A stretch of 64,000 bases of DNA from Candidatus Saccharimonadota bacterium (lineage in GTDB: Bacteria; Patescibacteriota; Saccharimonadia; Saccharimonadales; Saccharimonadaceae). The stretch covers positions 343,978-407,977 of the forward strand of contig QJZZ01000001.1 in NCBI GenBank assembly GCA_003246575.1. The letters are read 5' to 3'. The notes beneath the pieces were generated by a model, which saw nothing but the letters and a program-made list of their open reading frames with translations, searched no databases and was not told the origin of the DNA. Below are positions 16,775 to 25,128 of the stretch, in pieces. How positions within the stretch are numbered: the first letter of the stretch is position 1; each line of letters begins with the position of its first letter. The translations under genes and the position numbers were made by a program.

Positions 16775-17061
16775 GCACATTAGCGGTATTGACTCGCAAA
16801 ATAGGTATGGAGTACGACCTATTTCGCCGAGTGGGAATCAAGCCAGCTGATGCGCCTACCTTGAAATGTCGTACGGATGCCGAACAAACGTTTTTAAAAT
16901 AGTAATTAATAAAATGGTCGACACGCGCATCCTGTTCACAACAACAAACAGTGAAGAAAGACAGAGTACGGTAGCAGTCCCGCAGCAATGCGAGCGACGG
17001 GAGAACTATTATTCGTGGCACACAACCCACGACGGGGTCGACAAAATCACTTACACACCGA
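16775..17061 (+). ncRNA. Structured 5' leader of the LysM-CHAP gene, class unknown
   Basis: This 347-nt gap has no credible gene. It holds two foldable modules. Module 1: ACTCG (16792-16796) pairs with CGAGT (16828-16832) around an inner stem AAATAGGT/ACCTATTT (16799-16806 with 16817-16824). Module 2: GTCGAC at 16917-16922 and 17037-17042 can close a multiloop of three hairpins: CTGTT/AACAG (16932-16951), TCCCG/CGGGA (16978-17002) and CGTGG/CCACG (17014-17031). No ribosome site precedes the TTG start. I could not match it to ydaO (c-di-AMP), c-di-GMP or cobalamin riboswitch consensus sequences, though wall-hydrolase genes are common targets of such switches. Confidence 0.45.
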
Positions 17062-21290: not shown

Positions 21291-21365
21291 GTAGACTAGT
21301 ATGCAACAAAGTGCAAACATAAACATAATCAGAGCACGTATCTAGAAAAATAGCACAAAAAGTGG

Positions 21366-21371
21366 TATACT
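21366..21371 (+). promoter_or_regulatory. -10 box TATACT for uvrA
   Basis: TATACT 8 nt before the ATG at 21380. It excludes the GTG at 21362 as the start. Confidence 0.72.
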
Positions 21372-21379
21372 TTTCACCA

Positions 21380-24193
21380 ATGTCTGAGTCAATACGCGTA
21401 CGTGGAGCTAGGGAACATAACCTTAAGGGTGTCGATGTCGACATCCCACGTGACAAACTTGTTGTCATTACTGGTTTGAGTGGCTCGGGAAAGTCGAGCC
21501 TTGCGTTCGACACTATCTACGCCGAAGGGCAACGACGGTACGTCGAGAGCCTGTCGAGCTACGCGCGCCAGTTCCTTGGTATCATGGATAAACCTGATGT
21601 CGATACAATCGAAGGTCTTAGCCCCGCAATCTCTATTGACCAAAAATCGACCAGTCGTAATCCGCGCAGTACGGTCGCAACGGTTACCGAGATTTATGAT
21701 TATCTTCGTCTCTTGTTTGCGCGCATTGGTGTGCCGCACTGTCCTGTGTGCGGAAAGGCAGTTCACCGCCGTACACCGCAGGTGATCATCGATGAAATTA
21801 TGAAGCTTGGCGACGGCAAGCGCCTGATGCTCCTTGCGCCGATTGTCCAGGCGAAAAAAGGTGAATTCCAGCATATTCCTGAACGCTATTCGCGACTTGG
21901 GTTTGCTCGTGCGCGCGTGGACGGTGTCGTGTATTCACTCGATGAATTCCCCGAGCTACAAAAGAGCTACAAGCACGATATCGATATCGTTGTAGACCGT
22001 GTTGTGCTCGCGGCCGAAGTGGTCAGTCGTGTAACACAGTCAGTTGAACAAGCACTTGATCTTGCCGAAGGCACGGTGCACGTCCTTGATGTTGATTCAG
22101 AAGAAACACATGTATTCAGTCAGCGATATGCGTGTGTCGATCATCCAAACGCTGAGATTCCTGAGCTTGAGCCGCGAATCTTCAGTTTTAACTCACCACA
22201 GGGTGCCTGTCCCGTGTGTACGGGCCTCGGTAACCGCCTCGAAGTTGATCCAGAACTTGTCTTCAATCCGAATTTGACGATCGCCGAGGGCGCTATTCGA
22301 CCATATAACCGCGTCAACTCTGACATGTGGTACGTTAAGCGGCTTGAGGCTGTTGGTGAAGCGCATGGATTCGATCTTCGCACACCTGTTCGTGATATGA
22401 GCGACGACGCAAAGCAGAAGATTTTATATGGAACCGGCGATCAGAAATATCGTGTGCAGCTTGGAACAGGCCGTCACTACGATTCTACCTATGAAGGTGT
22501 GATTCCGAACCTCGAACGTCGGCACAAGGAAACCGATAGCGACTTTATGCGCAAAGATATCGAGCGCTTCATGCGTGAACGCAAGTGCCATGAATGTAAT
22601 GGTGCTCGGCTTAAACCTGCCGTGCTTGCGGTCACGGTTCATGGTATGAGTATCATGGATATTTCTGATCTCAGTGTTGAAGCAGCGCTCGACATGTTTT
22701 TGCATCAGATCAAGCTCGAAGGCGATGAACTATTGATCGGTCAGCCAATTTTCAAAGAAATTACTGAACGACTGGGATTCATGAATAATGTCGGTCTGAA
22801 TTACCTCGAGTTGGGGCGTGCAGCAAACACATTGAGTGGTGGTGAAGCGCAGCGCATTCGTCTTGCGACGCAAATCGGCTCAGGATTACAGGGTGTACTG
22901 TATGTGCTCGACGAGCCATCAATCGGACTTCATCAACGTGACAATGACAGGCTTATCGCGACCCTGAAGCATCTCCGTGATCTTGGCAATACAGTGCTTG
23001 TCGTCGAACATGATGAAGATACCATCCGTGCCAGCGATTATCTTGTTGACGTCGGACCTGGCGCAGGTGTTCATGGTGGTAATATCGTCGCGCAGGGCAC
23101 GCCAGACGAAGTAGCCGCAAACACGAACAGTATCACCGGCGACTATTTGTCTGGACGCCAATCAATCCCTGTGCCGAATAAACGACGAACACCGAAGAAA
23201 GATCAAGAGCTTATCATCCGTGGTGCGCGCGAAAACAACCTCAAAAATATCGATGTGAAATTTCCGCTTGGTGTCCTGACAGTCGTTAGTGGTGTCTCCG
23301 GTAGCGGCAAGTCGACGCTGATCAACGATATCCTTGCCAAAGAGCTGTCTGCGCGCTTGCATCGTGCACAGGAGGTGCCGGGTGCGCACGAAAACATCGA
23401 AGGTATCAAGCACCTCGACAAAGCAATTATTATCGACCAGTCAGCGATTGGCCGTACGCCACGCTCAAATCCTGCAACATACACGGGCGTCTTCACGCAG
23501 ATTCGCGAACTGTTCGCGAACACTCCTGAATCGAATATCCGTGGGTACAAGGCGGGGCGCTTCAGCTTTAATGTCAAGGGCGGACGCTGTGAAAACTGTC
23601 AAGGTGACGGGGTAATCAAAATCGAGATGCACTTCTTGCCTGATGTGTACGTGACCTGTGATGAATGTCATGGTAAGCGGTATAACCGTGAAGCACTTGA
23701 GATTAAGTACAAAGAAAAAACCATCAGCGACGTCCTCGATATGACCGTAGAGCAAGCAGCGCAATTCTTCGCAAATATTCCGGCGATTGCACGCAAGCTC
23801 GACACACTGGTTGATGTTGGCCTTGGGTACATTACACTCGGTCAGCCTGCAACGACCTTCTCTGGCGGAGAGGCGCAGCGCATCAAGCTCGCCAGCGAGC
23901 TCAGTCGCCGCTCAACAGGCAAAACACTGTATATTCTCGATGAACCAACCACAGGGCTGCACTCTGCTGACGTCAAGCGCCTACTCGCGATCCTCAATCA
24001 GTTAGTGGAGGGTGGCAACTCGATGATTATCATCGAGCACAATCTCGACGTCGTGAAATCTGCCGATTATCTCATCGACATGGGCCCGGAAGGTGGATTG
24101 AACGGTGGTCAAGTCGTTGCTGAGGGTACGCCTGAGCAAGTTGCTCGTAGTGCCAACAGCCACACTGGTCGATATCTCAAAGACATTTTGTAA
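21380..24193 (+). CDS. uvrA: Excinuclease ABC subunit A (UvrA)
   Basis: 937-residue damage-recognition ATPase of nucleotide excision repair. It has two ABC cassettes: Walker [15 protein letters not shown] (near 35) and [14 protein letters not shown] (near 640), signatures [12 protein letters not shown] and [12 protein letters not shown], and Walker [11 protein letters not shown] and [10 protein letters not shown]. Zinc modules are visible as CPVC in the first half and CENC...CDEC in the second. Start [15 protein letters not shown] is typical. uvrC is also in the window (41 kb). Transcribed alone from a leaderless-type promoter. Confidence 0.98.
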
Positions 24194-24200
24194 GTTGTAC

Positions 24201-24241
24201 GGACTCTGCCGGCGACGCGATGAAGCGCCGCCGGCAGAGCC
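24201..24241. terminator. G+C-rich hairpin between uvrA and the rRNA-mimic RNA
   Basis: Perfect 11-bp stem CTCTGCCGGCG/CGCCGGCAGAG (24204-24214 with 24229-24239), extendable by GG/CC. No T-run on either strand. It could end uvrA and the reverse-strand RNA. Confidence 0.6.
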
Positions 24242-24442
24242 GAGAGTTTCTCGACTACCTATTGTCTCGGCATATGTTGAAGCCGATATCGTCGGGCGTC
24301 TCCCTTCTGGCGGGAAACGCAGATTGTCGAAGGGAATCCGCAGGCGAGCGCTGGACCAGTGAGCTATTACGCGCTCTTGCAAGGGTGGTTACTTCTAATC
24401 CAACCTATCTGGTTGTCGATGTGCTCTGCCTGCAGGCTACCT
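24201..24442 (-). ncRNA. Stand-alone RNA mimicking the GTPase-associated centre of 23S rRNA
   Basis: The ~266-nt gap between uvrA and dedA has no credible gene. On the reverse strand, 24417 to 24351 reads like the L11-binding domain of 23S rRNA (roughly E. coli 1045-1112), including the near-invariant GCGTAATAGCTCACTGGTC (24372-24354) and TTAGAAG. All helices can form: closing stem ACCAG/CTGGT (24413-24409 with 24359-24355), the helix-43 hairpin (24405-24387) and the helix-44 hairpin GAGC/GCTC (24376-24361). A TGCTATAAT -10 (24457-24449) lies upstream and an 11-bp G+C-rich hairpin (24239-24204) downstream. The remaining ~110 nt is not recognisable as rRNA. Ends are estimates. Confidence 0.75.
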
Positions 24443-24448
24443 GTCGGG

Positions 24449-24454
24449 ATTATA
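24449..24454 (-). promoter_or_regulatory. -10 box TATAAT (extended TGC) for the 23S-mimic RNA
   Basis: Reverse-strand TGCTATAAT immediately after the dedA stop codon (24460-24462). Predicted start site about 24442. Confidence 0.75.
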
Positions 24455-24459
24455 GCACA

Positions 24460-25128
24460 CTAGCGTTTTTCGCGTCGGAAGATGACACGGAGCTCGCGCA
24501 TGGTTCCATCCCAAAGTGCTTTGCGGCGACTTGGCTCGCGGAGCGCATGAAAGAGCATAGGGCTAATCGAAAGAAAGATGATGATCAGTGCCGCAACTTC
24601 GACATTGATTCCTGCGTCGTGAAGGATTTTTCCAGCGTAGTAGCCGAGATACGTGAAGCCGTACGTCCATGTGAAGGCGCCGATAATATTGAACGGCAAG
24701 AATTGTTTGTAGGTCATTTTGCTGACGCCGGCAACAATCGGGACGAACGTACGTACGATGGGAACGTAACAGGCAAGAGAAATGGCAAGCGGGCCGTGCT
24801 TGTCGTAGAACTCTTCAGTCCTGACGAGATTTTCCTTGCGGAAGAAACGACTGTTTTTGCGGTCAAATAGTTTACGCCCTACGCGCTTACCAAAGAGGTA
24901 GCCTGTACTTTGGCCAAGACTCGCGGACAAGAAGAGGAGGAAGGCAAACAAATGAATCGACATAGGAATTGGGCCTGGAAGGATACCTTGCTGAAACAGG
25001 AATCCGGCCGTGAATAGGAGGCTGTCTCCGGGAAACAGAAACCCAATCAGCAAACCTGATTCGGCAAAAATAACAAACATGATGGCGAAAACGCCGAGTC
25101 CAGTGATGAGGTTGAGGAGGCCTTCCAT
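24460..25128 (-). CDS. dedA: DedA-family membrane protein
   Basis: 222 residues with several membrane helices. The family signature is seen as ESGLLIGFLFPGDSLLFTAG near residue 25 and, after a basic loop (FGKRVGRKLFDRKNSRFFRK), FYDKHGPLAISLACYVPIVRTFVPIVAG, which carries the conserved Arg and Pro of the second half. DedA proteins act in membrane homeostasis, some as flippases for undecaprenyl phosphate or phospholipid. It is divergent from rplY. Confidence 0.92.
   Translation of the reverse strand: MEGLLNLITGLGVFAIMFVIFAESGLLIGFLFPGDSLLFTAGFLFQQGILPGPIPMSIHLFAFLLFLSASLGQSTGYLFGKRVGRKLFDRKNSRFFRKENLVRTEEFYDKHGPLAISLACYVPIVRTFVPIVAGVSKMTYKQFLPFNIIGAFTWTYGFTYLGYYAGKILHDAGINVEVAALIIIFLSISPMLFHALREPSRRKALWDGTMRELRVIFRREKR

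Follow-up and report, generated by a model that had tools for sequence, protein, structure and literature searches.

Why does a sequence resembling a functional centre of 23S rRNA lie between two protein-coding genes in a member of the Saccharibacteria, tiny bacteria that dwell on other bacteria? The sequence in question, found in the 64,000-nucleotide stretch of DNA analysed here (the window), is a 67-nt domain on the reverse strand (24351..24417) that corresponds to 23S helices 42-44 (h42-h44), the L11-binding or GTPase-associated centre, and reads GACAACCAGATAGGTTGGATTAGAAGTAACCACCCTTGCAAGAGCGCGTAATAGCTCACTGGTCCAG. It is part of a predicted RNA gene of ~240 nt (24201..24442, reverse strand) that extends from a predicted start to the end of a G+C-rich hairpin. 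The upstream neighbour, on the same strand, is a gene for a dedA-family membrane protein (24460..25128), and the downstream neighbour is the convergent uvrA (21362..24193, forward strand).

The similarity of this copy to 23S h42-44 is far above chance. The domain scores 81 bits (E 3e-20) with covariance model R1 in one genome, the model including this same sequence, and its 16-mer GCGTAATAGCTCACTG occurs once in the window, where 0.03 occurrences would be expected by chance at up to two mismatches. When the whole unit was compared by blastn to phage and plasmid records, 23S genes were matched over query positions ~36-127, with E values down to 2e-14. An alignment to Rfam, which the original prediction had proposed, produced no family match to the unit at gathering score, LSU included; the missing LSU match is probably due to the fact that the piece covers 67 of the 2925 model positions.

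All three helices can be placed in the window copy. The h42-like stem (24355..24413, reverse strand) pairs 24413-24409 with 24359-24355, as judged from covariation, and its flanks, GACA.CC/GG.C.AG, resemble the kink-turn region of 23S that forms the L10 site. The h43-like hairpin (24382..24406, reverse strand) carries the heptaloop UAGAAGU (24397-24391), while the h44-like hairpin GAGCGCGUAAUAGCUC (24361..24376, reverse strand) carries the loop GUAAUA (24370-24365). The adenines equivalent to A1067 (24396) and A1095 (24368) are both present, as had been predicted. The complementary arms described for the three stems are borne out by covariation, with the exception of an A24399/A24389 mismatch in the h43 arm, at the place of C1064-G1074 in 23S; in addition, A1084 is replaced by C. 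The domain is mounted on a basal stem, P1 (24338..24435, reverse strand; pairs 24435-24428/24345-24338 and 24426-24423/24349-24346), taken from the minimum-energy fold (z = -3.25).

The genome's own 23S gene is located on a different contig and has an intact h42-44 domain, CTAGGATGTTGGCTTAGAAGCAGCCATTCATTTAAAGAGTGCGTAACAGCTCACTAG, which is 72% identical to the window copy; outside the domain, the unit does not match the genome's own 23S. Thus, the copy is neither a recent local duplication, in agreement with the original prediction, nor a replacement for a missing domain, and the suggestion that it could substitute in trans for a 23S lacking this region is excluded.

We searched for further copies at the DNA level in 151 genomes of the family, and with covariance models R1 and R2 over 393 genomes of the order and 394 of the family. 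In total, eight copies were found in Saccharibacteria outside 23S genes, that of the window and seven others. Five of them, from four genera, occupy the same site between dedA and the convergent uvrA: the window copy, L009 (genome G161) and L010 (G019) of genus g18, L075 (G017) of genus g16, and L076 (G140) of genus g36. The alignment between the window and L009 extends over 100 nt and includes P1. The remaining three lie elsewhere, with L012 (G169, genus g18) adjoining pyrG, and L077 (G076, Candidatus Saccharibacteria HKST-UBA48, family f17) located between der and pth, genes that were named from their translations. L083 (G782), the weakest match at 23 bits, is just upstream of secE-nusG-rplK and 2.3 kb before the L11 gene; secE and nusG were also named by reading translations, and a hairpin and further promoter-like sequence separate L083 from this cluster. 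The eight copies, their synteny in four genera and the strong compensatory changes described below thus support the original proposal of an RNA gene that stands by itself and reproduces the GTPase-associated centre.

The copies are infrequent (~7 of the 394 genomes sampled in the family), in a sampling that was partial and in which the searches over 40 genomes were filtered strictly, so that weak matches were lost and the true distribution is uncertain. In other family members with the convergent pair, the dedA/uvrA gap is mostly 0-75 nt and without such an RNA, and in the close same-genus relatives G001 and G002, in which uvrA does not adjoin dedA, no copy was found. Two longer gaps deserve mention in their own right. 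That of L177 (G112, with a DedA that shares 76% identity with the one in the window) measures 234 nt and contains a strong terminator-like hairpin with the 23S-like domain absent, and likely holds a different RNA or leader at the same site; that of L187 (G116) measures 540 nt and has strong hairpins and no domain copy. In L009 and L010 of genus g18, the 23S-like domain is preceded by an additional 5' domain that TGTGCC.ATC/GAT.GGCACA closes.

Several other candidates were rejected. A check of flanks added no domain copy outside 23S to the eight, as it identified L020 as a 23S variant, L084 as a 23S piece at a contig end and L141 as a short chance match, and the other order-level matches inspected were true 23S, contaminant 23S or chance matches in coding sequence. 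Weak covariance-model matches in dnaJ of G002 and in several other places proved by inspection to be coding sequence and were rejected as chance, as was a weak match at the 3' end of rplK in g18, a stretch that encodes GVEVA of L11. A short-linker pattern scan of a collection of genome contigs returned only the record of L077 and 23S variants, scans of viral contigs found nothing, and Rfam scans of the relatives gave nothing relevant. ARAGORN excluded tmRNA and tRNA identity for L009, L010 and L012.

Signals for expression were sought around the unit. Directly after the dedA stop (24460) lies a predicted extended -10 element, TGCTATAAT (24449..24457, reverse strand), from which a transcription start near 24442 is expected. 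The 40-nt G+C-rich hairpin (24201..24241, reverse strand) is without a clear T tail and probably serves as a terminator, for the end of uvrA as well. Both flanking elements of the original prediction are present, but a simple scanner called no -35/-10 pair in the window unit and no T-tailed terminator either, and the assignments thus rely on the extended -10 element and on comparison with relatives. In every dedA/uvrA copy, a -10-like box follows soon after dedA (TGCTATAGT in L075, AGCTATAGT in L076 and CTCTATACT in both L009 and L010), and T-tailed terminators are found behind L009, L075 and L076. These sequence features suggest that transcription starts at a promoter of the RNA's own and stops at the hairpin.

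The copies share mostly 56-78% pairwise identity, the same-genus pair L009/L010 excepted. Covariation was analyzed on a covariance-model alignment of seven copies, using 16 base pairs of the rRNA structure (a 14-pair version was also run). Changes on both sides were seen at 10 of the 16 pairs, with 90.7% of paired cells compared with 75.6% in shuffles (0 of 500 shuffles as high), as expected if the stems predicted originally are real; since the alignment is fitted to the structure, such counts lean towards it, and controls with slid partners, in which pairing drops to 32-49%, and unconstrained folds agree with them. The pair equivalent to 1051-1108 in h42, for instance, is A-U in four copies and otherwise G-C, U-A or G-U, and the h42 variants include CCAG/CUGG, CCGAG/CUCGG and CAGGU/ACCUG. 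Low identity, combined nonetheless with both-sided changes at the pairs, indicates that the fold is under selection.

Unconstrained folding produced the three-way junction on basal stems in six of the eight copies (L009, L010, L012, L075, L076 and L083). Fold z-scores were strong for L009 (-5.9), L075 (-3.7) and the window (-3.25), and weak for the others. In the window copy, a competing helix, GTTGGATTAG/CTGGTCCAGC, is predicted thermodynamically to be better than the rRNA-like fold by ~3 kcal/mol; a bound protein or tertiary contacts may determine which fold prevails, or the RNA may alternate between the two.

The residues that are conserved point in a particular direction. The C-terminal domain of L11 recognizes the junction and h44, as known from the L11-RNA complex; thiopeptides and EF-G contact the loop tips of h43 and h44 together; and L10 binds the kink-turn region of h42. 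The junction and the h44 hexaloop GUAAYA are nearly invariant among the copies (L083 has UUAACA), and the GACA.CC/GG.C.AG motif of the L10 site is kept in nearly all. The UAGAAG-type h43 loop is present in four of the eight (the window, L075, L076, as AAGAAGC, and L077) and is replaced in L009, L010, L012 and L083. Conservation of the junction, h44 and the L10-site motif, together with a variable A1067 loop, favours L11 as the partner, perhaps joined by L10, over the drug site. We note separately that the h44 loop of most bacteria is GUAAUA, and that Saccharibacterial 23S (the genome's own, L001 2690-2750, and most order-level genes seen) has GUAACA, a U to C change at 1097; GUAAUA is retained in six of the eight free-standing copies.

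The position of the copies outside rRNA, the conserved site, the conserved fold with its compensatory changes and the intact 23S of the genome itself are all established. That they represent a real structured RNA class is close to certain; the support for the class and for its fold is good, and we infer the partner and the role. The functional part would be a structural copy of the stalk base, mounted on a basal stem, to which a protein that recognizes this rRNA fold would bind; the likeliest candidate is L11, via the three-way junction and h44, and L10 could bind as well, on the kink-turn-like h42. Binding of a stalk-base protein is probable. As a decoy or holding site, the RNA could then adjust, in trans, how stalk-base protein is divided between the free and the ribosome-bound state, or alternatively regulate the synthesis of stalk proteins. 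We put the odds at about even for the complete proposal, in which the RNA stands alone and, as a decoy, a store or a regulator acting in trans, offers the stalk base to L11 and possibly to L10 as well.

Binding of L11 or of the stalk base fits best with all copies, and L11 is encoded in all genomes tested. The location of L083 beside the L11 operon of G782 is suggestive, as a single and weak match. Counting against the proposal, most copies have no ribosomal protein genes nearby, and L083, which does lie near rplK, matches most weakly; the family is sparse; the window copy has the A1084 to C change, the h43 A/A mismatch and the better competing fold; and the A1067 loop is lost in four copies.

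A broader reading, to which we give a low weight, is that of a new class of bacterial RNA: a ribosome-free stalk base, perhaps captured at first from the 23S of an actinobacterial host, which in an epibiont would titrate stalk proteins, translation GTPases or antibiotics of the GTPase centre. The L009 core is closest to the 23S of Actinomyces, Streptomyces and Arthrobacter (88-90%), which allows for capture from an actinobacterial host. The window copy is 84-87% identical to the 23S of Arthrobacter, Piscibacillus and one of the two other Patescibacteria compared, and has no clear preference among 23S sources; the h42-44 domain is too conserved to decide the source of the copy.

The RNA could alternatively sense or divert translational GTPases or the stringent factor RelA/SpoT, carrying L10-L12 and L11 as a stalk free of the ribosome. 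Helix 42, the kink-turn-like motif and h44 are indeed conserved together, RelA/SpoT-type proteins are encoded in all eight copy-bearing genomes, and L077 has der and pth as its neighbours. GTPases, however, also need the sarcin-ricin loop, which is not seen in the RNA, and RelA/SpoT proteins are widespread anyway; we consider this role unlikely. We regard as equally unlikely that a captured foreign 23S piece, possibly actinobacterial, now serves the convergent genes as a domesticated, structured spacer or terminator and has no function related to rRNA. The similarity of the L009 core to actinobacterial 23S, the patchy distribution and the single convergent gap shared by five copies are in line with such an origin. 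Nevertheless, compensatory changes in h42 and h43 and the conserved unpaired GUAAYA and UAGAAG would be superfluous in a spacer or terminator, L009, L075 and L076 have separate terminators, and copies are also found at three other sites.

Capture of thiopeptide antibiotics, whose binding site is between L11 and the A1067/A1095 loops, was among the roles originally suggested; such a decoy or trap would be useful to epibionts that dwell on actinobacteria, a group that includes thiopeptide producers. Both loops are present in the window copy, L075, L076 and L077, and the window and L009 copies are nearer to general bacterial or actinobacterial 23S than to their own. However, L009, L010, L012 and L083 have lost the A1067 loop and retain the rest, and high-affinity binding of thiopeptides also requires L11; we thus consider this role improbable. 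A split 23S piece, or a rescue domain that serves the ribosome in trans, is contradicted by the intact h42-44 of the genome's own 23S and by the 72% identity, and is very improbable, even if rRNAs split into small RNAs are known, for example from apicomplexan mitochondria (PMC10948144). Finally, contaminant-looking 23S contigs do occur in relatives G094, G718 and G863, but an assembly artefact or chimeric contaminant is scarcely credible for a copy embedded in a 470-kb contig with no other rRNA around it, and is contradicted by the occurrence of differing sequences at one shared site in five genomes, which represent four genera.

The reading that we prefer, in which the RNA would present the stalk base to L11 in trans, can be compared to known systems. 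Mimicry of rRNA is familiar from the mRNA leaders of ribosomal proteins, which act in cis; the E. coli-type L10 leader (Rfam RF00557) is one such leader. In those of L20 and S15, an RNA outside rRNA mimics the rRNA binding site of the ribosomal protein (PMC7247131); L10 and L11 are unmentioned in the main text of that article. The likeness lies in the copying of a ribosomal protein's rRNA binding site outside rRNA. Those leaders, however, are located in the mRNAs of ribosomal proteins, whereas seven of the eight copies described here are not ahead of a ribosomal protein operon (the window copy is outside any such 5' leader, and L083 alone is upstream of secE-nusG-rplK), and, unlike the leaders, the dedA/uvrA copies have their own predicted start signals. 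Compared to the GTPase-associated centre of 23S itself (E. coli 1051-1108), the RNA has the same three helices and junction, and the same loops in half of the copies, but it stands alone on a different basal stem and shows compensatory changes at base pairs that are almost constant in the 23S of Saccharibacteria. CsrB/RsmZ and 6S are small RNAs that titrate proteins: each imitates the site that its protein naturally binds and thereby keeps the protein sequestered. The mode of titration proposed here would be analogous, with the differences that the copied target is rRNA, that there is one site per RNA and that titration is putative. The rRNA-fragment genes of apicomplexan mitochondria (PMC10948144) are likewise small separate genes with rRNA-like sequence, but their products build the ribosome, whereas the genome analysed here has a 23S that contains this domain.

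In the searchable literature, from which subscription papers are mostly absent, we found no description of a free-standing mimic of an rRNA domain, nor was there an Rfam match, and a stand-alone copy of this rRNA centre appears not to have been described before. A stand-alone gene that preserves a functional centre of rRNA by compensatory change implies that a piece of the ribosome, isolated from the rest, has a role in trans. The idea that a decoy RNA regulates the stalk base in bacteria, or the factors and drugs that dock there, thereby becomes testable, and does so in a group of reduced epibionts.

Elsewhere in the window, the lysM-TM7 RNA motif (RF03005, 101.8 bits), which marks the window as Saccharibacterial, is located at 16854-17003 on the forward strand, upstream of a gene for a LysM-domain protein.
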